Origin: a virus
Reading direction: 5' to 3' (one strand)
DNA: 39,734 nucleotides
Virus record (IMG/VR): IMGVR_UViG_3300042731_004234
Coordinates: 1-39,734 of that record
The notes under the pieces are model-generated. The model was not told where the DNA came from, ran no database searches, and saw only the letters and a program-made list of their open reading frames with translations. Both the position numbers and the translations under genes were made by a program. Positions 215-39,734 of this stretch are shown piece after piece. Each line of letters starts with the position of its first letter. Position 1 is the stretch's first letter.

Positions 215-272
215 TTTGTTTCTCCTTTTGTTTGTCAATCTACTCATAGTATACCTTATGGGGAACCTCATG

Positions 273-641
273 TCAAGGGGTATTTGAAATATTTTTTTTA
301 CTCGAAATATTAGCTGTGTTTTCACACATTGGACAAGATTTAACATTGTGTTCCCTGCGACGGTTATAAGATACCAAATTAGGGCTATGATTTATTTTCT
401 CAACTGTGGTAGTTACTTTAAGTTTAGAGTCAATGCGAAATCTTTTTCCGCATCCAAAATTTTCAATAAATTGCCCACAAAAAAGCTCTTCGCATAAATG
501 ATATTCACCATCAATAAAAATATTACTTCTATCGGGTTCTTTTTCTGTAAATTTTTTTAAAGTATCAACAAGAGAAAAATCAATCACGATACTTTGAGGA
601 AGCTTACAATATGGACACATTATTTTTGTAGATATTCTCAT
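273..641 (-). CDS. Putative zinc-binding protein
   Basis: A 122-residue protein with a CPYC knuckle near residues 9-12, further cysteines (LCEELFCG, FGCGKRF) in the middle and a CPMC knuckle near residues 103-106, as expected for one or two structural zinc sites. No catalytic motif is visible. The start overlaps the stop of the Rep gene by 4 bases (ATGA), so the two are co-translated. This links it to replication or to copy control, but that is inference from position only. The family is not recognised. Confidence 0.7.
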   Translation of the reverse strand: MRISTKIMCPYCKLPQSIVIDFSLVDTLKKFTEKEPDRSNIFIDGEYHLCEELFCGQFIENFGCGKRFRIDSKLKVTTTVEKINHSPNLVSYNRRREHNVKSCPMCENTANISSKKNISNTP

Positions 642-1768
642 TTTACCTCCAGGTCATTTCTTTTTTTTATCTCAGAATTTAAACGATGATGGGCAACTGC
701 TTCTACGCTTCTAACGCTAGGATCTTTTTCCAAATCTTTAACAATTTCATCATAATTTTTTTGAGCAGCTTCGCTGTTTGGTTTGCAATAATAAACTTTC
801 CCTATTTTTTCCATAAGAGCTTCTTTGTTGCTTAACAAAGTAAAATTTCCCCCATCTTTTTTATTTCTTTCATGAATTTCAGGATTAATTAATCGTTTAT
901 TTTGATCTGCCAAATTATTTATGAGTTCTTTTTCTGTGTAAGGTCTTTTTTTACAAATTATTTTGTAATCAGAATTATCATTTGTTTTTACAAGCCTAAT
1001 CTCCGTCATTACCCCATCCAAAAATTTTGCGGATTTCAATTCTTCAATAACAGGAAGTAAAAGTTTTTTTCTATCGGATGGTTTTTTGTAATCTGCTAAT
1101 CCCAACTCTTTAAAAAGTTCTTTTGTGTTTTTGTGAAAAAATCGTGACTTATACATTTTTAAATCCAATAAGTTATAAAATAATATGGATATTTCTTTTT
1201 TTAATCTCCTGACTTCACTGAGACTTATTGGCTTGCAATAATTTTCATAAATATTTTTTTTAATTTCATCTCCAAACTTAAATTTACTAAATTCAAATTC
1301 AAGCTGTCCTTTTTCTGATTTTCCTTCAATAATGGTTAACTCTGTGATTATTGGAATTTTAACTGTTTTTGAAATACATGATGTCTCTTTCGTACTCCAA
1401 GAATTTGTAAAATAGATGTTCACATCAGATAACTTAATTATGGATTTTCGGATATCTTTTAAGTTTGTGCTTCCATGACTGTTGCGCAAAACTCTTTCAA
1501 GCCCTTTTGAAGAAAAATAAACAAAATCTTTTTTAGGGCATTTTTGCTCTCGAAACAAAATTGAAAGGCATAAATAAACTTTTAAATCAAAAGTTGTTAA
1601 AGGCTGATCAATGTTTACTTTTTGAGGAAATTCTGGTGTGTGATTTTCAAAGAAAATATCTCGCTTCCCTTTTTTTACTTTTGAAGTCGAGAAAATGCCT
1701 CTCACAAAATTCAAATCAAACCTTGCGAGCTGATATTCTTCATTGCTTCGGTTTTTTTCTTTACTCAT
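638..1768 (-). CDS. Plasmid-type replication initiator (Rep_3/RepA-like winged helix)
   Basis: A protein of 376 residues that would bind the iterons just upstream and recruit the host replisome. The layout fits the two winged-helix domains of iteron-plasmid initiators. The N-terminal half has the stretch TFDLKVYLCLSIL followed by a strand-rich segment; the C-terminal half has the segment SEVRRLKKEISILFYNLLDLK, then a basic helix and wing. The ATG at 1768 is preferred to a TTG at 1804 because it follows AAGGT at 9 bp. Directly upstream lie 22-bp iterons and DnaA boxes, which is the main support for the call. It is transcribed from the promoter at 2215-2243 after the zinc-ribbon gene. Such initiators are typical of plasmids and phage-plasmids and are unusual beside an O-like phage initiator. 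Confidence 0.75.
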   Translation of the reverse strand: MSKEKNRSNEEYQLARFDLNFVRGIFSTSKVKKGKRDIFFENHTPEFPQKVNIDQPLTTFDLKVYLCLSILFREQKCPKKDFVYFSSKGLERVLRNSHGSTNLKDIRKSIIKLSDVNIYFTNSWSTKETSCISKTVKIPIITELTIIEGKSEKGQLEFEFSKFKFGDEIKKNIYENYCKPISLSEVRRLKKEISILFYNLLDLKMYKSRFFHKNTKELFKELGLADYKKPSDRKKLLLPVIEELKSAKFLDGVMTEIRLVKTNDNSDYKIICKKRPYTEKELINNLADQNKRLINPEIHERNKKDGGNFTLLSNKEALMEKIGKVYYCKPNSEAAQKNYDEIVKDLEKDPSVRSVEAVAHHRLNSEIKKRNDLEVK

Positions 1769-1881
1769 TTTAAGATTACCTTCTAAGGTTAAAACCAATC
1801 TCAAAACCTACTTAAAACCTACTTGCAGCTCTTTATTTTTTATATAAGCTACTCATAAAATTAACCTTATAAAATTGGGTG

Positions 1882-1964
1882 GCGGTCAGAACCTCACCTT
1901 CATGCGGGTAAAACTGCACCTTCATGCGGTCAGAACCTCACCTTCATGCGGGTAAAACTGCACC
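1882..1964. repeat. Iteron array: two exact 39-bp repeats, 22-bp iteron period
   Basis: The 39-bp sequence at 1882-1920 is repeated exactly at 1926-1964. The core CACCTTCATGCGG occurs at 1895, 1917 and 1939, always 22 bp apart, and CACC recurs at 1961 on the same period. A partial copy (GTCAGAACCTCACC) lies at 1985-1998. Exact 22-bp spacing is about two helical turns and is the hallmark of initiator-binding iterons. The array lies 114-196 bp upstream of the chosen Rep start. Confidence 0.88.
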
Positions 1965-2009
1965 CGTGTGGATAACTTTTAGCAGTCAGAACCTCACCGG
2001 TGTGGATAA
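1882..2009. other. Plasmid-type origin of replication (iterons plus DnaA boxes)
   Basis: The iteron array is followed by two perfect DnaA boxes in reverse orientation (TGTGGATAA) at 1967-1975 and 2001-2009. The flanking 1805-1880 is AT-rich and could serve as the unwinding element. With the adjacent Rep gene, this matches the layout of theta-replicating iteron plasmids. The origin sits inside the early transcription unit, between the zinc-ribbon gene and rep, so transcription from 2215-2243 would cross it. Confidence 0.82.
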
Positions 2010-2011
2010 CT

Positions 2012-2185
2012 TTAGGCATCGGTTTTTCTTCTTTTGTGTTTTTTTTCATTTTTGTTTTTCTTTGGAACATCAAAAAGGGCTGTTTTGCAATTAGGACATT
2101 TTCTAACATCTCTTTTTCTAGGAATCCAGCGATGACCGCATCTTAAACAATCTATCTTTTGTAATGCTTTTTCATCAACAATCAT
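2012..2185 (-). CDS. Small zinc-ribbon protein
   Basis: A 57-residue protein with CLRCGHRW and CPNCK knuckles (residues about 14-34) and a very basic tail (KKNKNEKKHKRRK), which suggests nucleic-acid binding. It has one of the best ribosome sites in the window (AAGGAGG about 8 bp before the ATG). It is the first gene after the promoter at 2215-2243 and ends 3 bp from a DnaA box of the origin. A role in copy control or early regulation is plausible but unproven. Confidence 0.75.
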   Translation of the reverse strand: MIVDEKALQKIDCLRCGHRWIPRKRDVRKCPNCKTALFDVPKKNKNEKKHKRRKTDA

Positions 2186-2214
2186 AAAAACTACCTCCTT
2201 TTAATAACTATAAA

Positions 2215-2243
2215 AATGTACCATATAAGGTATATATTGTCAA
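2215..2243 (-). promoter_or_regulatory. Sigma70-type promoter for the early/rep operon
   Basis: On the minus strand, TTGACA (2238-2243) is followed after exactly 17 bp by TACATT (2215-2220), with a TG one base before the -10 (extended -10). Transcription would start near 2208, about 23 bp before the zinc-ribbon ATG. The spacer holds an inverted repeat, TACC-N6-GGTA (2219-2232), that could be a repressor operator. Confidence 0.8.
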
Positions 2244-2255
2244 ACCTTTTGAGGA

Positions 2256-2283
2256 ATAAAAAACCCTCCCAAAAAGGGAGGGC
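2256..2283 (-). terminator. Rho-independent terminator closing the late operon
   Basis: A perfect 7-bp GC-rich stem (CCCTCCC 2264-2270 with GGGAGGG 2276-2282) has a 5-base loop. On the minus strand it is followed by a T6 run. It lies 32 bp after the last lysis gene and just before the early promoter, so it separates the end of late transcription from the start of the early operon. Confidence 0.9.
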
Positions 2284-2314
2284 TAAAATTTAAAAATAAG
2301 GCTAGGGAAGAGAA

Positions 2315-18398: not shown

Positions 18399-19613
18399 TT
18401 ATTCTCCTATCGTTTTTATTTCCGTTTCCTTGTAATAAATTGCCAATAGAATAGGGAAAATAAAGCCTACTCTCGCCAAGTGAAACGGAAACTGGCCTAT
18501 TGACATTATTAGCAGTGATATGAAAACCCCAGCAATACATAACACGTTGATATTACTAGAGTTAAATCGTCTCTTTATATCTCGAATTAAACCAAAAAGA
18601 ATAAGTAATCCAACTATTCCATATTCAAAGAAAACCATAATAAATTCGTTATGAGCATTATCCCAAGGGTCAACCGTATCCCCTTCCTTAAAGAAATCTT
18701 TCCTTGATCTCATTTGCCCTGGTTTATCCGTTGGATACATCTTTGCGGATTCTCTGGTTCTAACGTTCTTAAAATAATTAAACCTTTTGTACTTTGATAC
18801 ATTTCTAAAGCTATCCAGTCCCCACCCTGTTATGGGATGCTTCATGGCATCTCGTAAAACAGGCTTCCAAAGCTTAAACCGATCCTCAAACATGCCTGTT
18901 TGGTAATCTTTTGCAATATAAATGCCACCACCCAGCAAAGAAACGAGTAAAAGCCCTATAACAAGCTTTTTATGCGCAAATGAAAGGCAAAACGCATAGG
19001 CCAATAAGGCTGCTACCAAAGCGCTAGAACACTCACTCAAAGCAAGCGGGAAAAAGAGTAGAAGCGGTAAGTATTTATTGAATCTAAAGGCAATCGGCAC
19101 ACCCATTGCAAGAATCATCCCACTTGCGGCCTTTATGCCCATAATTCCCATTAAATCCTTAATTCCCTCACCTACAAACGTGCCTTGGGATTTAATTTTA
19201 TAAAGAACATCAAAATTTATAGTCTGTAACGCCATCCAAAAAACATGGAAACAAATAAGCGCAATAAAAATACCAAATACATGCTTTATCCACTTTTTAT
19301 CAACAAAGCGGTGGGTAAATTCATAAATTGCGCAAACACTCAAGGCGTTGATTAGATAACCTTGACCGTTAAAACCATAAAAGCTATACAAAAACACACT
19401 CCATAAAAGAAAAAGCGAAAGCCATAGATTTTTAAGCATAAAAGCCATAAAAACTATCGCACTCAGCTGAAAAAACTGCTCTTGGGCAATCCTCATCGCT
19501 TGGTCACCAAGATTAATCCCTGAATGATAGAAAAATGGGCACACAAATATAAAAAGCAGTAGTAATAATTTTGGTGCGTTATTAAAATTAATTTTCATAT
19601 CCACTAACTTCAC
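18399..19613 (-). CDS. O-antigen polymerase/ligase-like membrane protein (Wzy_C type)
   Basis: A 404-residue protein with about ten membrane segments. A periplasmic loop holds the family pattern: RFKLW near 245-249, GWGLDSF near 263-269, and HNEF...EYG near 321-332. Enzymes of this family polymerise O-antigen units or join O-antigen to lipid A core in the inner membrane. Here it starts by GTG in a GTGA overlap with the adaptor gene and is followed 1 base later by the coiled-coil gene. A phage copy would change host surface sugar, for example to block other phages. Polymerase and ligase cannot be separated from sequence. Confidence 0.8.
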   Translation of the reverse strand: MKLVDMKINFNNAPKLLLLLFIFVCPFFYHSGINLGDQAMRIAQEQFFQLSAIVFMAFMLKNLWLSLFLLWSVFLYSFYGFNGQGYLINALSVCAIYEFTHRFVDKKWIKHVFGIFIALICFHVFWMALQTINFDVLYKIKSQGTFVGEGIKDLMGIMGIKAASGMILAMGVPIAFRFNKYLPLLLFFPLALSECSSALVAALLAYAFCLSFAHKKLVIGLLLVSLLGGGIYIAKDYQTGMFEDRFKLWKPVLRDAMKHPITGWGLDSFRNVSKYKRFNYFKNVRTRESAKMYPTDKPGQMRSRKDFFKEGDTVDPWDNAHNEFIMVFFEYGIVGLLILFGLIRDIKRRFNSSNINVLCIAGVFISLLIMSIGQFPFHLARVGFIFPILLAIYYKETEIKTIGE

Positions 19614-21229: not shown

Positions 21230-22219
21230 TTATGTGGTCGAAACGTTCGTCAACACTTTGTGTGCAGACGGAAGATTCGTGGTTAAGTTGCGGAACAGGT
21301 AGAAAATACTCGTTGAATTTAAGCTGTTCTCTTTGCGAGAGAATGGCTCAAATACAAAGTTACCTTTCCGTAGGATTTTGTAGAACAAGTGACGAGAGTT
21401 CAGGTAATAGAAATGGTCATCTGGGCAACCATCGTCATAGCCCAAAAGGGCTGTTCCGATATAGAAGTTGTCGAAACCAAGTGCTGTTACCTTCTCATCA
21501 GCCCGAACTCGACGCAAAGCATCCATAAAGCCGAAAAGACCGCCCCAAAGTTCAGGGGTTGTTACGGCGATATCTGGATTGGTCTTGGCATCTCCACCCA
21601 TTGTTGCTCTTTCTGAGTGCAGAACTGAAAGACCTGCTTCACTGCCAATATCCGCAATTGCTGTCGTATAAGCACCATTCTGGGCATAGGTATTGCCAGC
21701 ACGTGTAATGCCGCCTAAGGTTCCAGTGGTTGGTGTATCAGACACAATTGAACGGATGGATTCGGGATCAACATCAGTCGGCGAAGCTGTCCACAAATCA
21801 TCATTTAAAGTATTTGAGATTGTGGTATCGGCTTGCGTTCTTAATGTTTTCATCCATTTCTTAATCGCTGACTTGCCCTGGTTCTGTGCATCGTGCAGAG
21901 TGTTAAGCACAATAGAACCACTAAACGTCTTCGGATCGAACTTGAACTCACGAGTAGGATCTTGATGGGCTGCATCAATGTCCGTATAGTGACTTCTATT
22001 CGCAAAGTTCGTATTCTCACTGATTAAGACGGGTTCAGCAAAGTCAAGACCTCCATCAACGAGTTTTCTGGAACCTTTCTTATCCAGCATCATCATTGTG
22101 AAGTTCTTTTTTATTGCCGCATTCCCAATCTCTTCTCCGTGATTCTCGAAGATATGAGTAGCTAGGGTTTCAAGTAGCGTAGTTTCTTGCGTTTGAATCG
22201 CAATAGTTCCTGCTGCCAT
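21230..22219 (-). CDS. Major capsid protein (HK97-fold expected)
   Basis: A 329-residue protein located right after the scaffold gene. Its C-terminal third (FYIGTALLGYDDGCPDD, FYYLNSRHLFYKI, FEPFSRKENS, FLFRNL) has the pattern of podoviral major capsid proteins, where strands of the A domain alternate with conserved turns. The N-terminal MAAGTIAIQTQE and the middle helix fit the family. No protease domain is present nearby, so maturation would rely on the scaffold and not on a capsid protease. The ribosome site is GAGG at 8 bp. Confidence 0.75.
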   Translation of the reverse strand: MAAGTIAIQTQETTLLETLATHIFENHGEEIGNAAIKKNFTMMMLDKKGSRKLVDGGLDFAEPVLISENTNFANRSHYTDIDAAHQDPTREFKFDPKTFSGSIVLNTLHDAQNQGKSAIKKWMKTLRTQADTTISNTLNDDLWTASPTDVDPESIRSIVSDTPTTGTLGGITRAGNTYAQNGAYTTAIADIGSEAGLSVLHSERATMGGDAKTNPDIAVTTPELWGGLFGFMDALRRVRADEKVTALGFDNFYIGTALLGYDDGCPDDHFYYLNSRHLFYKILRKGNFVFEPFSRKENSLNSTSIFYLFRNLTTNLPSAHKVLTNVSTT

Positions 22220-22239: not shown

Positions 22240-23253
22240 TTATAAACCAGCTTGGCTGTAAAACTTGTCTACAGCAGAATCGATATCACTATCAACCTCT
22301 TGAGGTGTCCGAGGAGTAGCTCTATCTTTTCTTTTCTGACTGGCCGGAACGCTCTGGGACAAGGGCTTGGCATTAGCTTTCTTTGCATCCCTCGCCTCTT
22401 GAAGACCTTTAGTCTTTTGTCTTTCAAGTAACAGGCGGCTTACAAAAGCGTTGTAGAGATTAACGGCATCTGGGGGTTGTTTTGCGCCAGGATTTCGCTT
22501 GTAAAAACTATCAAGCTCTAATTTCATCCCAGGTAAAACTTCCTTGTCATAGTCAAAGCCATGCTCTTTTGATAGCCTTTCAACCTCGTCTAACTGCCTA
22601 TTGACCGCTTGTTGCCTTTGTTGTTGCTCGAATTGACCTTGAATAGGCTGTAACGTAGAGCCAATTTGACGCTTGTTTGCAACTTCAATAATCTTTACAA
22701 GTTGCTTTAGTGTCTGCTTGTCCTCTGGTGTCATAGCATCAAGATCATCCCCATAAAGCTCACGAGCGACATCTTGATAAAGCGAGGACTTAGCCTTTTC
22801 TTCTTGGACAGGGAAACCGCGCATCTGCATCTCTCTGTCAACTTCGGCCTTCGTAAATCCTTGCCTTATTAGGTATCGCCTGTAAATTTCAGGGTCATTC
22901 AAGAGGGAGGTATACCCTTCAAGCTGTCTTTGGGTTTCCTCCGCTTGTCTTTGAGCTTCCTTTAGTTTATTTTCACGTTCTATCCAAGCAGGATGTTTGG
23001 CGAAACCGCCTTCGACCCCCTTGAAGTCCTCAGGCTGCTCTTGGGTGCCTTGCGTTTTTTGCGAGTCGCTCTCGCCTTCCCCTTGAGTTTCCTGTGCAGA
23101 TTCTACGGTAGAGCTATCCGATGCCTCTTGCTGTGGCGCGTCTTGAAGTGGCGCTTGTTCACTCGGCTTGTTCAGTTCTTCCATCTTCTGGTCAATCGAG
23201 TTGTCAATCGCCTCATCCACGCTTTGTTTAGGCTCTGTTACTGTATCTGGCAT
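22240..23253 (-). CDS. Capsid scaffolding protein
   Basis: A 337-residue protein, Gln/Glu-rich and mostly helical. The N-terminal 95 residues are disordered and acidic; a coiled coil spans roughly 90-290; a short basic C-terminus (AKPLSQSVPASQKRKDR) would bind the capsid interior. Placement between portal and major capsid protein with this composition is diagnostic for a scaffold. Its leader contains several hairpins (23275-23433) and follows a terminator, suggesting separate control of capsid genes. Confidence 0.7.
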   Translation of the reverse strand: MPDTVTEPKQSVDEAIDNSIDQKMEELNKPSEQAPLQDAPQQEASDSSTVESAQETQGEGESDSQKTQGTQEQPEDFKGVEGGFAKHPAWIERENKLKEAQRQAEETQRQLEGYTSLLNDPEIYRRYLIRQGFTKAEVDREMQMRGFPVQEEKAKSSLYQDVARELYGDDLDAMTPEDKQTLKQLVKIIEVANKRQIGSTLQPIQGQFEQQQRQQAVNRQLDEVERLSKEHGFDYDKEVLPGMKLELDSFYKRNPGAKQPPDAVNLYNAFVSRLLLERQKTKGLQEARDAKKANAKPLSQSVPASQKRKDRATPRTPQEVDSDIDSAVDKFYSQAGL

Positions 23254-23274
23254 TTCTAACCTTCTTTCTTTAGG

Positions 23275-23317
23275 CTCTTAACGTTTAGAGCGGTCGTTTA
23301 AGGCGTTTTGCCTTAAA
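23275..23317 (-). promoter_or_regulatory. Hairpins in the leader of the scaffold-capsid genes
   Basis: Two inverted repeats lie just before the scaffold ribosome site: GCTCT...AGAGC (23275-23292) and a perfect 8-bp stem TTTAAGGC/GCCTTAAA with a 5-base loop (23297-23317). Neither has a U-tract on the minus strand, so they are not simple terminators. They could stabilise the message or control scaffold translation. Confidence 0.5.
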
Positions 23318-23323
23318 ATTAGC

Positions 23324-23408
23324 CCCGACAAGCAAATAAAAAAGGCACTAGAGAATTTTTAAGTTCTCTAATGCCTTAGCTAAGGTCTTGCTTTATTTAA
23401 TTGTCGGG
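23324..23408 (-). terminator. Long hairpin with inner terminator before the scaffold gene
   Basis: An inner stem (AAGGCACTAGAGAA with TTCTCTAATGCCTT, 23342-23376) is followed on the minus strand by TTTTTTATTTG, as in a Rho-independent terminator. An outer stem encloses it: CCCGACAA (23324-23331) with TTGTCGGG (23401-23408) and AAATAAA (23334-23340) with TTTATTT (23392-23398). Outer pairing would hide the U-tract, so the two pairings may compete as attenuator and antiterminator. A 12-base palindrome (CCTTAGCTAAGG) lies at 23374-23385. Confidence 0.6.
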
Positions 23409-23433
23409 AGTCTTAAGGGATCAGCTTAAGACT
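23409..23433. other. Perfect 9-bp inverted repeat
   Basis: AGTCTTAAG and CTTAAGACT are separated by 7 bases. It adjoins the long hairpin at 23324-23408. The T-run lies upstream of it on the minus strand, so it is not a classical terminator; it could be a protein-binding operator or an RNA hairpin. The remaining gap to 23542 contains only a short membrane-like open frame without a ribosome site. Confidence 0.5.
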
Positions 23434-23542
23434 TAAAAAAATAACATTCTAAAAATTACTATCGTTAATGTGATTATCGCTACTATTAAAACCATCGGAA
23501 GCGACAAATAATCATTTCTGATGCGTTTCTTGTATCGAATAA

Positions 23543-23740
23543 CTATCCTCTTGCTCCTGAAACATTAAGTAAACGCACTTCAAAATTACTTCTTGCCAGC
23601 GACTTCTTCTTTTTCCTCCTACTCCCTCCTAACTTTTCAGGGAGTGACTTAACGTCTTCTGTCTTTGAAGCAAACTCTTTTGCAACTTTCGGTTCATTAG
23701 CAAATAAAAATCGTGCTTGAGCTTTACTTTTAAACGGCAT
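23543..23740 (-). CDS. Small basic conserved protein (MPFKSKAQARF type)
   Basis: A 65-residue basic protein beginning MPFKSKAQARFLFAN and ending in a Lys/Arg-rich tail. This N-terminal motif is seen in many small phage and bacterial proteins of unknown function (DUF3008-like). Position between portal and scaffold suggests a minor head or assembly role. The start overlaps the zinc-ribbon gene by 11 bases. Confidence 0.6.
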   Translation of the reverse strand: MPFKSKAQARFLFANEPKVAKEFASKTEDVKSLPEKLGGSRRKKKKSLARSNFEVRLLNVSGARG

Positions 23741-24068
23741 AGCTTTTTGTTTTCCCTGCTTTCCAACGAGCTTTTTTTATCTGTTCCTTGTACTTTTTCT
23801 TAAAAGGTGCATCGTTTGCATTTATATGACCATGCTCCTTCATCAATCGGCTCTCCTGTTTTGCCGAAGTAATGTGGCATTCATACGTGGGGTCATAGAA
23901 CGACTCAAAGACTTGCGCTTTTGGGGCGGCAAATACCCTCCGAAGATCTTTGCCACAATCGGCACACACCTCTCGGCTTTGGCACTTTTCCATAGGCTTG
24001 CAAATGTCCAATCTCTTCTGGTTACCTTGTGCGTCTTTGCATTGTGGGCATTCGTACTCATAAATCAA
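23730..24068 (-). CDS. FmdB-like zinc-ribbon protein
   Basis: A 112-residue protein with YEYECPQC at the start and a second knuckle (CADCG) followed by RRVF, as in FmdB-type putative regulators. A basic helical tail follows (KKKYKEQIKKARWKAGK). The start is TTG at 24068 because GGAGGA lies 7 bp upstream; an upstream ATG would add ten residues inside the portal gene. It lies between portal and scaffold, where a zinc-ribbon gene is seen in some phages, but its role is not known. Confidence 0.65.
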   Translation of the reverse strand: MIYEYECPQCKDAQGNQKRLDICKPMEKCQSREVCADCGKDLRRVFAAPKAQVFESFYDPTYECHITSAKQESRLMKEHGHINANDAPFKKKYKEQIKKARWKAGKTKSYAV

Positions 24069-24069
24069 C

Positions 24070-26082
24070 CTAAATTCCTCCTCCAATAGGCACCGCACCA
24101 GCTGGACCTTCTGTGACTGGTTCTAGAGGAACTTCATTCGTTCCTTCTACTGGTTGGGGTACTTGTCCTTCGGCTGGCACGGCTCCGACTGGCTGACCCG
24201 TTAGTGGGTCAATTTCTGGAACTGGTTCGGGTTGTGGCAAATCCCGAAGTATAAGATCAGGATTCTTGTTATAGCTCTTAATAGTTTCTGTGATAACCGA
24301 TACATCCACCATCTTGCCTTGTGAGGCTAAAAACTGCTGAACCACTGGCAAAAGAAGGAAATTAGCAAGCTCTGTGTTATCCATCCTCTGTTTCATGGGA
24401 TTTGGTCTCTCTGCTGTCGTAATATCAGCCTCAACCAGGTAATCCCCTTCTAAGATGTCTGACAGTCTCCCAAGCTCTGGCCTATACCAGAAATCTCCAC
24501 CTTCCAAGCCTGTAACTTTAAAGAAGTCATCCCCATCCCAAAGCTGTTGGATAATATCTTTGTAAGTGTTTAAAACCTCTCGTATTACGTCACCTAAAGC
24601 ATCTCTTATGTGATTTGTGTTAGCACCAAAGGCTTGGTTTTGGATAGCATCTTGTGTAGCAAAACGAGCATCTGAGTCGCCACTTTTTGCAAGCTCATTT
24701 GAGCCGATGTTCTTATTGATTGCCTCAACCATTTGTAATTGTAGGTCTTTATTCTCTGGCGCTACTCCTCCAACTGGTAAAGCCTCAAATACTGGTCCTG
24801 GGTTCTTTTTGTTTATAACAGCGTATGGATCACCGCTTTTTAGGGCTTGTTTACCATCATCCGTTAAACCACCTTCCCAAACAGCAACTTTCCTCAATGC
24901 TCTGTCTGCATGCTCCATTTGTATTGTGATGTAGTGATTTAAATCATCCTGAGGCTTTATAGCGCGACGGATCTTAGAAACTGGGTACAAACGTCCATAT
25001 TTGTCAATACAGCCATATTTAAGCGTAAAATCATTGGTTCTAAAGGGTAGTTCGTAATGGTCTAAGGCTTCTGGAATGCCGCATGTTAGATTTAGAACTC
25101 TAACGCCACCTTGTTTATTTCTTATTTGAATCTCATAGACTAAAATCTCGCGTTTGTTGTCTTCTTTTACGTGTCCTTGAGTAAAATCAACCATTGTTTG
25201 AGTATCATCTGTGCTAGTTGGAATCTTGTCTTTAAAGTCAGGGTATTTGTCTTTAAACTCAGCCCTTGTCATTCTTACTTTTTTGACAACGTAGCGGCTT
25301 TTTTTAAAGGTAGTGGCTCTGTAGTCAAAGAGTATGTCCAGCGGGTTCCATCTTTCGATATAAGTAGAATCGAATATGTAGTCTTTACCCTCCGTATCAA
25401 CTTCCGCCGCGATCCTTTCTTCGACTTCCGACCTTGTCTCTTGCGTGCTGTTTTCGCCATTTTCACGTCCTGTAAGCTTGTTAAATAAACTTTTTGCCCC
25501 ATTTATTATTCCGTCAGCGGCTTTGTCTGTTATGTTTCTTGCGTCTTCTGGGGCTTCTTGACCAACAAAAGGCTGCGCTTGTTCTGTAATATGATTTGCT
25601 TCGATGACACAATAACCAGCGGCTAGGAGATCAAATAAGGCTAGCTTTGCCTCAGCTTTCAGGTCATTCTTCTCAATCCCATACTTTAAGGCTCCTTGCA
25701 TAAGCTCATTTAAAGGCACTTGTGGGAATGCCGTTGGGTCTTCCCCTCTTGCCATCATCTGAAGTTGTGCTTCAAAGGGTAGCTGTACTGGCTCTTCTGC
25801 AGAAGGGTGCTTTGCCTTAACTGTGACTGTGGGATTCTGATAGTAAGTGCCGCTTATGATGGATGAGATGCCAGGATAGATTTCGTCGATAATAGCCATC
25901 TGGTGAGGGTTCTGGATTTCATTGTGTTGCAAGCCTTCATAGTATTGAAGAACCTTCTCATAGCCTAAGCGATTAATGAATTGACTTCGCTGGAAGTCCT
26001 CACTTGCTTTAATCTCAGCTTGCCAGAAGCCTACTTCTTCTTTCTCAATGGGTAATTTTTGCGTTGGTATGGGTTGTAGCAT
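24070..26082 (-). CDS. Portal protein
   Basis: A 670-residue protein that would form the dodecameric ring for DNA passage. The N-terminal part (NRLGYEKVLQYYEGLQ, IDEIYPGISSIISGTYYQNP) and the long helical stem near residues 370-480 match large podoviral portals. The C-terminal ~60 residues are Pro/Gly-rich and disordered. It lies next to the terminase genes and before the scaffold, the standard order. It follows AAGGA. No frameshift or truncation is seen. Confidence 0.75.
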   Translation of the reverse strand: MLQPIPTQKLPIEKEEVGFWQAEIKASEDFQRSQFINRLGYEKVLQYYEGLQHNEIQNPHQMAIIDEIYPGISSIISGTYYQNPTVTVKAKHPSAEEPVQLPFEAQLQMMARGEDPTAFPQVPLNELMQGALKYGIEKNDLKAEAKLALFDLLAAGYCVIEANHITEQAQPFVGQEAPEDARNITDKAADGIINGAKSLFNKLTGRENGENSTQETRSEVEERIAAEVDTEGKDYIFDSTYIERWNPLDILFDYRATTFKKSRYVVKKVRMTRAEFKDKYPDFKDKIPTSTDDTQTMVDFTQGHVKEDNKREILVYEIQIRNKQGGVRVLNLTCGIPEALDHYELPFRTNDFTLKYGCIDKYGRLYPVSKIRRAIKPQDDLNHYITIQMEHADRALRKVAVWEGGLTDDGKQALKSGDPYAVINKKNPGPVFEALPVGGVAPENKDLQLQMVEAINKNIGSNELAKSGDSDARFATQDAIQNQAFGANTNHIRDALGDVIREVLNTYKDIIQQLWDGDDFFKVTGLEGGDFWYRPELGRLSDILEGDYLVEADITTAERPNPMKQRMDNTELANFLLLPVVQQFLASQGKMVDVSVITETIKSYNKNPDLILRDLPQPEPVPEIDPLTGQPVGAVPAEGQVPQPVEGTNEVPLEPVTEGPAGAVPIGGGI

Positions 26083-26492: not shown

Positions 26493-26634
26493 ATAATCCT
26501 TTAGTTTGGCCGTTAAAATCCCCTCGCTTTTTCATCTCCCATTCCCATAAAAGATAAAAAATTGCATATACTCCGATAGCTATGACAAAAGTAAATGTCA
26601 TAAAAATCCAGTAAAAAATCTGATAATTGATCAA
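26479..26634 (-). CDS. Tiny membrane protein overlapping the terminase end
   Basis: A 51-residue frame starting at TTG 26634 in a TTGA overlap with the terminase stop, after GAGGGG. One membrane segment (FMTFTFVIAIGVYAIFYLLW) precedes a basic tail. An ATG at 26601 is an alternative start. The function is unknown and coding status is moderate. Confidence 0.4.
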   Translation of the reverse strand: MINYQIFYWIFMTFTFVIAIGVYAIFYLLWEWEMKKRGDFNGQTKGLCGKR

Positions 26635-27920
26635 AATCCCCTCGATGAGTAAGAACGCCTGCTAGCTGTCTCTTTCTGCTCCATATACCAAGCGGCAGTA
26701 AAACGATTTGCTTTCTTCTCCTCTTTCTTCGCAGGCAAAAGGCGTGATGCCACAGCGTATTTAATACAGTCACAAGCATGGTTATCTTTGTCTTCTGGCA
26801 CCTCGGGCAGGTTTCCTCCATACCCCGGTCGGACCGCTTTCCATTTCCAATTGTTTATTTCGCGAATAGTATTCACACAATTACGGAAAATCTTAATCTT
26901 GTCGTGCTTAAAGGCTTCGTTTACACGGGCTATTGTGGCTTCTTCGGCTGAGCGGATGGCAGGTATAAGCGTGATCCCTAGTTCGGCATATTCATCGGCT
27001 ATAGAGCACACATAGCCGGCTTTCTGCTGTGTTTTTGCGAACATAGAGGGATCGCTTATACCTGTGTAGCCGTGCTCAATTCTTTCTTTTATTTTTTCAG
27101 CATGATGGGAAATGGGCTGTTCTTTCTCGTAATGCTCATCAAAAAATATGAGATTACCGTCAAAATCGACTGCATACCAGAGTACAGCAGTAGGGTTTCT
27201 AAAGCCGTGGTCAATGATAAAACCTGTCTCCCAGCCTTCTGGTATGTCGTAGGGATGAATAACGTGTTTTGATTCTATAAATTCGTCGTAAACCAGACCC
27301 TCTGACTCCTCCCACGAATTCAACACATACCTACGATATAGTTTCTTAGGTAGCGTCTGTAGGTTATCTATGTAATCAGAGGGCAAAACGTCTTGGAAGT
27401 CTATTGTTGTGGCTTCCATGAGGGCATGATTTGGAGGGCAACCGTTCTTTTTCCAGATATCATATATCCAATTATGACCGTTGGTATTTGCTATTAATGC
27501 TCCTGTCCTAAACTTCACTTGTCGGCGCAGTCTCATCTTCAGGAATTGCCATGTGGTATCATCTGGGAATTCTTCGGCTTGCTCCATCATAAAAAATCCC
27601 AAATTAATATTCTTGAGGGTTGGCAATTCGTCACCATGGCGAAACATAATAAGAGAACCATTTGGAAGCTTATCTTCTTTGTTTGATTCGTTGATCTTTC
27701 TTCCTGTGTAGTTCTCATAGTCTTTTATGGTGGAGTCTCTTAAATCTGTGTAGTTCTTTCTAACGATTAGTCCCAGGTTGTTTGGTGTCTCTTGTGAATG
27801 AAATAAAGCTTTAGCAATAAGAGATGTTGATTTGCCTGTCCCAACTCCTGCTACATAGGCTGGGAATTGTTCACAAGCACCTATAAAATCATATTGAGTG
27901 GGCTTAAGATTGAATTTCAT
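26631..27920 (-). CDS. terL: Terminase large subunit
   Basis: A 429-residue protein that drives DNA packaging. The ATPase has a Walker A GVGTGKST (residues 25-32) and an EQAEEF segment near 113-118 in the Walker B/catalytic position. The nuclease domain has acidic residues in FIIDHGF (near 237), TGISDPS (near 290) and DNHACDCIKYA near the end, as expected for an RNase-H-like fold. The start overlaps the preceding small gene (ATGA). It ends just before the tiny genes leading to the portal. The packaging type (headful or fixed end) is not clear from sequence. Confidence 0.88.
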   Translation of the reverse strand: MKFNLKPTQYDFIGACEQFPAYVAGVGTGKSTSLIAKALFHSQETPNNLGLIVRKNYTDLRDSTIKDYENYTGRKINESNKEDKLPNGSLIMFRHGDELPTLKNINLGFFMMEQAEEFPDDTTWQFLKMRLRRQVKFRTGALIANTNGHNWIYDIWKKNGCPPNHALMEATTIDFQDVLPSDYIDNLQTLPKKLYRRYVLNSWEESEGLVYDEFIESKHVIHPYDIPEGWETGFIIDHGFRNPTAVLWYAVDFDGNLIFFDEHYEKEQPISHHAEKIKERIEHGYTGISDPSMFAKTQQKAGYVCSIADEYAELGITLIPAIRSAEEATIARVNEAFKHDKIKIFRNCVNTIREINNWKWKAVRPGYGGNLPEVPEDKDNHACDCIKYAVASRLLPAKKEEKKANRFTAAWYMEQKETASRRSYSSRGF

Positions 27921-32603: not shown

Positions 32604-32793
32604 TTGATACTATGTCTCCCGAAGTAACCTTTCCTTGCGACACTTCATTTACTGAATAGTCAGTTGTAAGTTTGTGTAGTTCGTTTTCCTGCAGAAAATA
32701 AAAAACGGTTAGGACTAGGCTCATTACTACTAAGCCAATTATCAGAAGTTGATTTTCAAATTTTTTTTCCTGTGCGTTTTTTGCGTTTTTCAT
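32596..32793 (-). CDS. Small single-pass membrane protein
   Basis: A 65-residue protein with one membrane segment (LLIIGLVVMSLVLTVFYFL, residues about 16-34) and a soluble outer part. It overlaps the Fic gene stop by ATGA, so the two are probably made together. It could anchor or regulate Fic, but no evidence beyond position is available. Confidence 0.55.
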   Translation of the reverse strand: MKNAKNAQEKKFENQLLIIGLVVMSLVLTVFYFLQENELHKLTTDYSVNEVSQGKVTSGDIVSSD

Positions 32794-33272
32794 TTGAATA
32801 ATCCGTAATATCCTCTTTTGTCCCTACTCCTAAAAATCAAAGGATGCACCCCTGCTCTCTTACAATGCCAAAGATAGATTAGGCGTCCTGTTCTTCCGTT
32901 TCCATCTTCAAAAGGATGAATGTTCTCAAAGTTTCTGTGCCATGCTAGGGCGTAAACTGCATCTTTTGGTAAGGGTTGTGCTATTAAATGTTCTAGGTCA
33001 TGCTTTATGTCTTTGTGGTCTGGGCAAATATAGGTTCCCACTCTGACGTTGCACTTTCTTAGTTTTCCTGCAATTCTTGGGTCTATATGATGAATAATGA
33101 GCTTATGTAGTTTTAGGATTTCTTTCATGCGTAGATCTTTTTGTCCTACTAGCCAATACCATGCTTCAATAGATTCGTGCTCTGCTGCAGGACAATCAAT
33201 GCCTTCTATGAGATTTGATTCTCTGACAAATTCAGCTATGCTAAAACTCCACTCAAGCCAGTGTGTTTTCAT
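32790..33272 (-). CDS. Fic-domain AMP-transferase with inhibitory helix
   Basis: A 160-residue protein with the complete Fic motif HPFEDGNGRTGR (residues 119-130), whose His is catalytic for transfer of AMP or similar groups to proteins. Near the N-terminus SNLIEG (19-24) fits the inhibitory pattern (S/T)xxxE(G/N), so it would be a self-restrained class II-type Fic. Possible roles are host modification, superinfection exclusion or an addiction function like Doc of phage-plasmid P1, but no clear antitoxin is adjacent. It overlaps both neighbours. Confidence 0.85.
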   Translation of the reverse strand: MKTHWLEWSFSIAEFVRESNLIEGIDCPAAEHESIEAWYWLVGQKDLRMKEILKLHKLIIHHIDPRIAGKLRKCNVRVGTYICPDHKDIKHDLEHLIAQPLPKDAVYALAWHRNFENIHPFEDGNGRTGRLIYLWHCKRAGVHPLIFRSRDKRGYYGLFK

Positions 33273-33582
33273 TTTTTTCCTTTCTTTTTTGATCCAAAAG
33301 CATTTTTACTACATCCTCATTATCCCCAGTTTCTTCTATGTGCAAATTGTTTATCTCTTCTTCTTTTAAAACCAAAAGCTTTGTTCCATCGATAAATAAA
33401 CACGAATCAATGAGAGATTCCCCATCTCTAATTACGACTTCTTTTGGCTTAAAAACACAGTTAATAGCCACAGATGATTTTCCAGCAAGTGACTTTATAA
33501 ACCAATATCTTAAATCTGCATGGTGATATATTGCTGTTAACAGAACACCCCCAACAATACCCACGATTATTTCTTTTTTCAT
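33253..33582 (-). CDS. Membrane-anchored hypothetical protein upstream of Fic
   Basis: A 109-residue protein with a short hydrophobic N-terminus (IIVGIVGGVLLTAIY) that is an anchor or uncleaved signal, then a small beta domain and a charged helical tail. It overlaps Fic by 20 bases. It could be a partner of Fic, but it does not look like the usual AntF/Phd-type antitoxins. Confidence 0.55.
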   Translation of the reverse strand: MKKEIIVGIVGGVLLTAIYHHADLRYWFIKSLAGKSSVAINCVFKPKEVVIRDGESLIDSCLFIDGTKLLVLKEEEINNLHIEETGDNEDVVKMLLDQKRKEKNENTLA

Positions 33583-33758
33583 TTCTTCCCTTTCTTCTTA
33601 GGTTCGTAGTTTTTCATCGAAAAAATATCATCTTCTCTGTAGCGCCATCTACCCCCTATTCTTACTCCTGGGATAGTTCCTAATTTTACCCATCTAAAAA
33701 CTGTCATTGGGTGAACATTTAGAATTTGTGCTACCTCACTTGTCGTGATATATCTCAT
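33579..33758 (-). CDS. MerR/excisionase-type helix-turn-helix protein
   Basis: A 59-residue DNA-binding protein with TTSEVAQILNVHPMTVFRWV and a wing ending GGRWRYREDDI, the HTH_17 excisionase pattern. In phages these act as excisionases or small regulators. No integrase is present, so regulation is more likely here. The ATG at 33758 is chosen because AAGGAG lies 8 bp upstream. Confidence 0.8.
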   Translation of the reverse strand: MRYITTSEVAQILNVHPMTVFRWVKLGTIPGVRIGGRWRYREDDIFSMKNYEPKKKGKK

Positions 33759-33762
33759 TTTT

Positions 33763-34086
33763 TCACTCCTTTTCATTTTGAAACCTCTTTGGAAGTAGTT
33801 TTTTCATAGTAGAGTTTCTAAGTTCACCAGAGCCTAGATTTTTCTCGTCAAAAAACTCTAAAAGCTCTATTAGTGAGGCAAGCCTTACAAGCTCCCAGTT
33901 ATTCATTTCAAGCAAATCTTCTTCTGTTATTGGCTTTGTTGTTTTTCCTGTGGAAGCGTCCATAAATTGAAGCCAGTGTTTTTGGAGATTTTCTTCTTCT
34001 ATCGGCTTGTCTCTTCTTCCGTAAAAAGCAAAGGATGTTTGGCAAATTAAAAATAATAAAAAGCAAATGATAATTGTTTTTTTCAC
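33763..34086 (-). CDS. Secreted hypothetical protein
   Basis: A 107-residue protein with a signal peptide (TIIICFLLFLICQTSFA, cut near residue 20). The mature part is helical and acidic. It overlaps the HNH gene by ATGA. Unknown role in the periplasm. Confidence 0.6.
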   Translation of the reverse strand: MKKTIIICFLLFLICQTSFAFYGRRDKPIEEENLQKHWLQFMDASTGKTTKPITEEDLLEMNNWELVRLASLIELLEFFDEKNLGSGELRNSTMKKLLPKRFQNEKE

Positions 34087-35593: not shown

Positions 35594-35803
35594 TTAAAAC
35601 GCAAAATAAGCCCCTTTTTTTGAATAACCTGTGGAAAACTCTTTGTATCTTTTTCGTTTTCGAAATTTTTTGCATTTACAGGCATAAGTAATTTTTCCAT
35701 ACTCTGCGATTGGGTAACACCCAACTCCCTCGTGATGGAGATATGACTCATGCCCGCAAACACATTTGTGTGAATCGTAATTTTTGTTGTTAAATCTATT
35801 CAT
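35594..35803 (-). CDS. Small zinc-binding protein
   Basis: A 69-residue basic protein with CVCGHESYLHHEG, then CYPI and CKCKKF, giving two Cys clusters and several His residues. The ATG at 35803 overlaps the end of the initiator gene. Such proteins are frequent in phage replication regions. The 120 bases downstream (35474-35593) hold one hairpin (35511-35533) and a GGTTTAAACC palindrome but no gene. Confidence 0.6.
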   Translation of the reverse strand: MNRFNNKNYDSHKCVCGHESYLHHEGVGCYPIAEYGKITYACKCKKFRKRKRYKEFSTGYSKKGAYFAF

Positions 35804-36440
35804 TTTCTCTCGGTAACTTGTCAATCAAACTAATTCCATAAGCAACTAAGTTTTTAACGTTTTTAGAGTGTTTTATTCTCAAAACAATCTTTCTAAAAAT
35901 TTCGTTATTTTCCCTGCTTCCAACTGGTAATTTGTGTACGTTTTCAATGACTTGTTTTAGTTCTTTGAGCTGTGTTTCTGTTAGGAAAAGCTCTTCTTTT
36001 TCTGAGTTATCCACAGTATCCACAGGCTCTACTATTAAATTTTCTTTTCTTTTACGTACGTTACGTACGTTACGTTCGTACGTCTTGATATCTTGATTAT
36101 AGTCAGTATATATACTAGGCTTGGGTCTAATAACTTTTAAAAAAGGTTCACAAAGGTATAGCACGTTGTCGCTATTTAGCAATCCAGCTTCTTTAAAAGC
36201 TTTACAAAGGTGGTCAGGACTGTTGTTTTCATCCGAGATTAGTTGAAAGGCGACTTTTGGTTTTTTTAATTTTAGCTCACCGTTGTACCTGACCGCCCAA
36301 AGGTAAAGCCTGATAATTTTTCCCAAAACTTCTTCTTTGCTCCATCTTGTTAACCCTACTATTTCCAAGACGATAGGATGATTATCAAAGTCAATGCCGA
36401 TTTCAACCGATGCAGAACTTACTGCGGGTTTTTCGCTCAT
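35796..36440 (-). CDS. O-like phage replication initiator
   Basis: A 214-residue protein. The N-terminal 110 residues have the winged-helix style of phage initiators (LTRWSKEEVLGKIIRLYLWAV, then FKEAGLL). The middle, NVRNVRKRKEN, is encoded by tandem DNA repeats, and DnaA boxes encode VDTVDN next to it. Having the origin inside the initiator gene is known from lambda O. The C-terminal helical part could bind the helicase loader. GAGGT precedes the ATG, and an inverted repeat (36457-36476) lies upstream as a possible operator. Confidence 0.65.
   Translation of the reverse strand: MSEKPAVSSASVEIGIDFDNHPIVLEIVGLTRWSKEEVLGKIIRLYLWAVRYNGELKLKKPKVAFQLISDENNSPDHLCKAFKEAGLLNSDNVLYLCEPFLKVIRPKPSIYTDYNQDIKTYERNVRNVRKRKENLIVEPVDTVDNSEKEELFLTETQLKELKQVIENVHKLPVGSRENNEIFRKIVLRIKHSKNVKNLVAYGISLIDKLPRENE
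36007..36116. other. Second origin-like array inside the O-like gene
   Basis: A perfect DnaA box TTATCCACA (36007-36015) is followed directly by GTATCCACA (36016-36024, one mismatch). Then TTACGTACG occurs at 36052 and 36061 and TTACGTTCG at 36070, as 9-bp tandem repeats. An AT-rich tract and a 12-base palindrome AGTATATATACT (36105-36116) follow. The order box, iterons, AT-rich is typical of an origin. A further DnaA-type box (TGTGGAAAA) lies at 35630-35638. Confidence 0.65.
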
Positions 36441-39658: not shown

Positions 39659-39734
39659 TTTGCACCTCCTGGTTTTCGGATGCTGCTTTCAAAATCCATG
39701 ATGCTCATTCTTACTGTCGGCTTAATTCCATTCC
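39655..39734 (-). CDS. 3' part of the gene crossing the circle join
   Basis: This is the end of the 74-residue protein whose start lies at 214. The frame enters through the repeated 69 bases and ends at TGA 39655-39657, overlapping the next ATG. The match of frame across the join is the best evidence that the genome is circular or permuted. Confidence 0.7.
   Translation of the reverse strand, partial: NGIKPTVRMSIMDFESSIRKPGGAK
39666..39734. repeat. Terminal redundancy, right copy
   Basis: Identical to bases 1-69; see the left copy. Confidence 0.95.

Follow-up and report, generated by a model that had tools for sequence, protein, structure and literature searches.

A phage genome with a plasmid-type Rep and iteron origin in the slot of its relative's integrase: a probable phage-plasmid

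Introduction

In iteron plasmids, Rep monomers bind the iterons and DnaA binds its boxes, an AT-rich region opens and the host helicase is loaded; copy number is kept down by excess Rep, which pairs origins. Initiators of the RPA type (PF10134) are encoded by plasmids 2 and 3 of Rubrobacter radiotolerans, by Frigoriglobus pPL17-1 and by megaplasmids of Thermus and Deinococcus; the Rubrobacter plasmids carry iterons of 22-23 bp upstream of rep and the Frigoriglobus plasmids have iterons too. Replicons of this type also occur in phages, since the Rhodobacter phages RcCronus, RcRhea and RcSaxon are tailed, ~36 kb in size and encode a RepA of the RPA type whose gene is immediately preceded by 22-bp iterons. 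RcCronus encodes a partition protein in addition to RepA, and an extrachromosomal prophage has been proposed for it (PMC4882933). In the mycobacteriophages of cluster A, parABS and integration cassettes are collinear, and deletion of repA from phage Miko yielded normal plaques and unstable lysogens, repA being needed for stable lysogeny and not for lytic growth (PMC7157519).

Results

The DNA analysed here, called the window, is the entire virus record IMGVR_UViG_3300042731_004234 of 39,734 bases, a single environmental record. Positions 1-69 are identical to 39666-39734, and this 69-bp direct terminal repeat gives a circle of 39,665 bp; the window is thus confirmed as a complete phage genome that closes circularly. 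A preliminary sequence-only reading had taken the DNA for a phage, which agrees with the packaging and virion genes that we found: the terminase large subunit (26631-27920, minus strand, in a phage context), the portal, the major head protein (21230-22219, minus strand) and a DNA-packaging gp3-like TerS. RecT and exonucleases are encoded among the early genes. The minus strand carries nearly all genes, and for this reason no switch in GC skew is visible along the window. No divergent lysogeny switch was seen, the assigned genes all sharing one strand, and the window contains no Rfam family and no tRNA that could serve as an att target.

Three further genes were noted. Inside the virion operon, 18399-19613 (minus strand) encodes a 404-aa membrane protein with nine hydrophobic segments and an O-antigen ligase/polymerase domain (PF04932, E=3.4e-12); this Wzy-like product possibly alters the receptor (serotype conversion), and the gene suggests a host with an outer membrane. 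A short Fic-domain protein (32790-33272, minus strand, E=4.2e-17) contains HPFEDGNGRTGR, an upstream SNLIEG stretch resembles the Fic inhibitory motif, and the gene was not counted as an addiction module. Despite the absence of an integrase, 33579-33776 (minus strand) encodes an excisionase/MerR-like helix-turn-helix protein (TIGR01764, E=2.3e-11), which may be a regulator.

The rep gene (638-1768, minus strand, ATG at 1768) encodes a protein of 376 aa. Compared directly with Pfam, PHROGs, NCBIfam and PDB sequences, the protein has no match, and PF10134 is missed by both a protein scan and a six-frame search, which marks it as a relative of that curated family and not a member. The sole match in the phage collection was a capsid gene and was judged to be due to chance. 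By tblastn against 72,556 plasmids, 39 records were obtained at E<=10, all of them in replicon regions; the annotation names replication initiator protein A or TrfA in 37, a plasmid replication protein in one and a hypothetical protein in the last, and the source plasmids belong to Rubrobacter, Frigoriglobus, Thermus, Deinococcus and Azospirillum. We built a profile from six plasmid Reps, leaving out the window Rep, to which hmmsearch assigned the window Rep 75 bits, while other window proteins and 200 shuffles reached at most 3 bits; hhalign against the same profile gave 97.8% (E=1.3e-12), with 40 shuffles at or below 0.3%. The three best-matching plasmid Reps match PF10134 themselves. The AlphaFold model of Rep, a single-sequence prediction, is poor (mean pLDDT 38.5); among PDB folds it comes closest to two initiators of the iteron type, RctB (E=1.9e-3) and RepE (E=0.06), and its order of secondary structure fits two winged-helix domains, which would lend supporting but weak evidence to an initiator. 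Judged by homology, Rep is demonstrably a plasmid-type initiator from a divergent PF10134-like (RPA) branch. The sequence-only reading had placed a plasmid Rep-type gene here, and the profile, hhalign and the relatives described below bear it out; its guess at TrfA or RepA came close, the family being the PF10134-like (RPA) one, in a divergent branch that falls short of a PF10134 match, and the profile comparison that it had proposed fails with curated Pfam models but succeeds with the plasmid-Rep profile.

The closest Rep relatives came from a sample of 396 genomes, drawn from one GTDB phylum, that of an Acidobacteriota MAG, which had been reached through a RecT scan of genomes (two unrelated carriers). 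Rep matches at E<=1e-3 are present in 9/396 genomes. One of these, G054, encodes four Reps with 27-33% identity to the window Rep (best E=2.6e-25), and an HMM of the four assigns the window Rep 137 bits. Because one G054 Rep scores 26.2 bits on PF10134, just below the cut-off of 27, it bridges the window Rep to that family. Exact 22-bp iteron arrays lie upstream of rep in all four G054 loci, in the same reading sense as in the window, and a GGTG...ACC motif stands inside the iteron unit (rep sense) in three of the four, as in GGTGAGGTTCTGACC and GGTGCAGTTTTACCC of the window; unlike the window, the loci have iteron sequences of their own, and no DnaA box was found upstream of these reps with the TTATNCACA pattern. 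These nearest relatives look plasmid-borne, because the parts of the G054 contigs that were read (contigs of 19-72 kb) hold no homologues of the window's probe virion genes and one contig (C36) carries ParA and ParB. The four Reps sit on separate contigs (C177, C160, C36 and C111; loci L023-L026), each with its own 22-bp iteron sequence, which suggests that one cell contains several plasmids compatible with one another, or several secondary replicons. The link of Rep to the Acidobacteriota group hints at a host group and reflects the choice of sample as well as the finding.

Directly repeated iterons adjoin rep, with a unit inside the 17-23 bp range of iteron plasmid origins. The array at 1884-1966 alternates two types, A (1884-1905), B (1906-1927), A (1928-1949) and a shortened B (1950-1966), which read GGTGAGGTTCTGACCGCATGAA and GGTGCAGTTTTACCCGCATGAA in the rep sense. 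In the plus-strand reading, type A (GGTCAGAACCTCACCTTCATGC) is present as exact copies at 1884 and 1928, with no mismatch, and type B at 1906 is GGGTAAAACTGCACCTTCATGC (GGGTAAAACTGCACC...); the spacing is 22, 22 and 22, and a fifth core, of type A, lies at 1985-1998. Since a 39-base exact run, the longest tandem run of the genome (10-13 in five shuffles), has a period of 44, the precise repeat is the 44-bp pair of A and B, and 22 bp is its half-period. In the fourth iteron, a perfect DnaA box (TTATCCACA) at 1967-1975 (minus strand) stands in place of the TTCATGCGG tail, a second perfect box of the same sequence at 2001-2009 (minus strand) adjoins the fifth core, and each box thus directly follows an iteron core. 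Two perfect DnaA boxes within 50 bp were found in 0/300 shuffles, and iterons together with both boxes are far above chance. The origin also has an AT-rich region between iterons and rep (1770-1880, 64-76% AT), which is probably a melting region and the rep leader. DNA folding as an explanation of the origin was dropped, folding being no better than in shuffles (z 0.01). Three claims of the sequence-only reading are upheld here: exact iterons at 22-bp spacing, now refined to the 44-bp pair, two perfect DnaA boxes, and the standard layout of iteron plasmids, which is that of the plasmid relatives of Rep, with iterons upstream of the gene.

The cassette spans 2243-273; the order along the minus strand is terminator, promoter, zinc-ribbon ORF, origin, rep, Cys-rich ORF and early promoter. 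An intrinsic terminator (2262-2284, minus strand), a nine-pair GC-rich stem followed by a T-run, ends the late operon and marks the border of the cassette. Directly behind this strong terminator, a consensus scan placed a TG-extended sigma70-like promoter, TTGACA-17-TACATT (2215-2243, minus strand), with TATACCTTATATGGTAC in its spacer. The strong promoter that had been claimed here holds as a consensus match (10/12) behind a terminator, but not as an enrichment, the regional density (1 found vs 1.1 expected) being no higher than chance. The first cassette gene is a small zinc-ribbon ORF (CxxC...CxxC; 2012-2185, minus strand, stop position from sequence) with weak Pfam zinc-ribbon matches in its first 50 residues; a small Cys-rich, CPXCG-like protein (273-641, minus strand), also on a weak Pfam basis, overlaps the end of rep. 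The early operon starts at a sigma70-like promoter, TTGACA-17-TATACT (248-276, minus strand), the strongest match in the first 20 kb, which contains the TATACCTTAT motif in inverted form. Inverted copies of the 17-bp motif TATACCTTATxxGGxAC, alike at 14/17 positions, lie at 2218-2234 and 250-266, in the spacers of both best minus-strand promoters around the cassette, and a 10-mer of it is exact at just these two sites in the genome. The motif may be an operator shared by the two promoters, a candidate for which one exact pair of 10-mers in 40 kb, taken by itself, is weak evidence.

A third perfect DnaA box (36007-36015) lies far from the cassette, inside an ORF at 35796-36440 (minus strand) that matches phrog_9474, 'replication initiation protein', at E=0.018. 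On the thin evidence of this match and one DnaA box, the ORF may encode a separate, O-like lytic initiator; a poor single-sequence structure prediction and a fold search were uninformative. Beside the box, 36007-36085 also contains a second near-match (GTATCCACA) and tandem TACGTACGT repeats, and this segment is a possible second, lytic origin.

The only close relative of the window that we found, IMGVR_UViG_3300020215_000038, has 41,272 b, a 127-bp terminal repeat and a GC content of 56%. It was retrieved from IMG/VR with the capsid, the only single-protein scan to yield a relative; scans with the single Rep, TerL, portal, the 35796-36440 ORF or the iteron pattern gave none, a two-sequence capsid alignment gave no further one and a four-Rep alignment gave nothing. 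Both genomes have a collinear virion module, the Wzy-like gene, a methyltransferase and a lytic transglycosylase, with identities of 77% for the capsid (major head protein), 49% for the portal, 42% for TerL and 43% for the Wzy-like protein. The relative differs from the window in having a tyrosine integrase in place of Rep and iterons, and ERF/YqaJ in place of RecT. The integrase matches PF00589 at E=6.2e-24, and its R...HxxR...H...Y residues are visible in the translation; tblastn, PF10134 and the plasmid-Rep profile all failed to detect a Rep in the relative, which also lacks exact tandem runs of at least 14 bases at periods 15-49. The late genes of the relative are followed by a strong terminator (22659-22689), the integrase (23179-24096), a promoter TTGACA-17-TATATT (24107-24135) and early recombination genes; those of the window are followed by the terminator (2284-2262), the Rep cassette (2243-273), the promoter TTGACA-17-TATACT (276-248) and early recombination genes. 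Because this frame of terminator, cassette and promoter is common to both genomes, we read the Rep cassette and the integrase module as filling the same slot, from late terminator to early promoter, in a comparison with one relative that implies no direction of change. After the integrase, the relative has a small ribbon-helix-helix-like ORF (L016:4142-4291, with the integrase at L016:3179-4096), a candidate that could encode its repressor.

In six-frame searches of the window with Pfam models, which match in 11-14 of 14 control genomes, neither a tyrosine integrase (PF00589) nor a serine recombinase (PF00239) was detected, and ParA-type AAA_31, ParB_N and HTH_3 (the CI/Cro-type repressor) were absent as well. 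That no integrase, ParA or ParB was recognised in the sequence-only reading is thereby corroborated.

Discussion

The genome combines virion and packaging genes with a plasmid replication module and no integration module, and we regard it as probably a phage-plasmid in which a replicon cassette stands in place of an integration module and the prophage would be a plasmid. Episomal persistence is the most likely state because Rep and its origin lie exactly where the nearest relative has its integrase; an episomal prophage had been proposed in the sequence-only reading, and Rep homology, the iteron layout and the integrase at the same position now support it as an inference. In such a prophage, the 22-bp iterons would be occupied by Rep monomers and the two adjoining boxes by DnaA, and the joint action of both proteins would melt the AT-rich stretch next to rep; the host replisome would then be loaded and the circular phage genome would replicate as a plasmid, with surplus Rep presumably pairing iterons and so limiting copy number, as in other iteron plasmids. 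Several points count against this reading, namely the lack of a recognised partition ATPase, ParB or CI/Cro-type repressor, the single strand of the assigned genes, the one close relative, the poor AlphaFold model (pLDDT 38.5) and the missing PF10134 match. A partition or addiction system is common in phage-plasmids but not a requirement; partition may be dispensable at a higher copy number, unrecognisable, or missing.

A further point, the position of Rep upstream of the early operon, makes a lytic role conceivable. The Rep/iteron origin could then be an ordinary lytic origin of a virulent or weakly temperate phage, its plasmid likeness telling only of the source of the gene. Rep is indeed co-directional with the early genes (RecT, exonuclease), and neither repressor nor par genes were recognised. 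However, the cassette comes with a terminator and a promoter of its own and the early promoter stands behind it, and the collinear relative, apparently temperate because it has an integrase, manages without Rep. The window moreover has another candidate initiator gene, which contains a DnaA box, and both genomes retain a Wzy-type gene such as temperate phages employ for conversion; hence we consider a purely lytic origin unlikely. A dual use is also conceivable: one iteron origin would serve prophage maintenance and the lytic start, Rep would be made just ahead of the early operon with a TATACCTTAT-type operator at both promoters, and iteron titration and copy control, instead of a CI-type repressor, would decide between the two states in a phage without a partition system. 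We put this forward as a decidedly doubtful idea.

That rep is a decayed or captive plasmid remnant, a recombination scar with no remaining function in phage replication, appears very improbable. The cassette is AT-richer than most of the genome (GC3 of rep 0.23 vs 0.3-0.4 for most genes), suggesting a separate origin, but the ORF is intact and keeps the columns conserved with the Acidobacteriota-group and plasmid Reps, the iterons are exact and the DnaA boxes perfect, and a prophage with neither an integrase nor a working Rep would have no route of inheritance. An assembly chimera of phage and plasmid contigs, for which the GC difference between cassette and late genes and the single environmental record might speak, is scarcely credible, given the exact closure by the 69-bp repeat, the single orientation of a cassette flanked by the late terminator and the early genes of a phage, the 17-bp motif common to the flanking early promoter and the cassette promoter, and a flanking gene (2315-2599) as AT-rich as the cassette.

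The phage-plasmid reading raises the question of how prophages lacking recognisable partition genes are inherited, and the difference between the two genomes offers a direct route to testing which lifestyle gene suffices for stable lysogeny. A phage Rep is moreover connected here with a branch of plasmid Reps that is present in an Acidobacteriota-group genome. Compared with the known RPA-type plasmid Reps, whose core is homologous to residues ~59-253 of the window Rep, the latter has ~20% identity, is shorter, has no C-terminal extension and stays below Pfam detection, and it is encoded in a phage genome without recognised par genes. The RcCronus-type phages resemble the window in their replicon, but they have a partition protein and a rep divergent from the late genes, their RepA is just 12% identical to the window Rep and no virion relationship was detected. 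In the cluster A phages with parABS and RepA (Miko, Jeeves), the maintenance cassette lies where sister phages have their integrase, as in the window; they differ in their Rep family, parABS, an identified repressor and no recognised iterons. The window phage is thus of the same kind as the RcCronus-type and cluster A phages; its virion lineage is another, its Rep belongs to a divergent branch and par genes were not recognised. Integrase and plasmid replicon appear to be interchangeable in one slot in a lineage outside the actinobacteriophages, where this was described.
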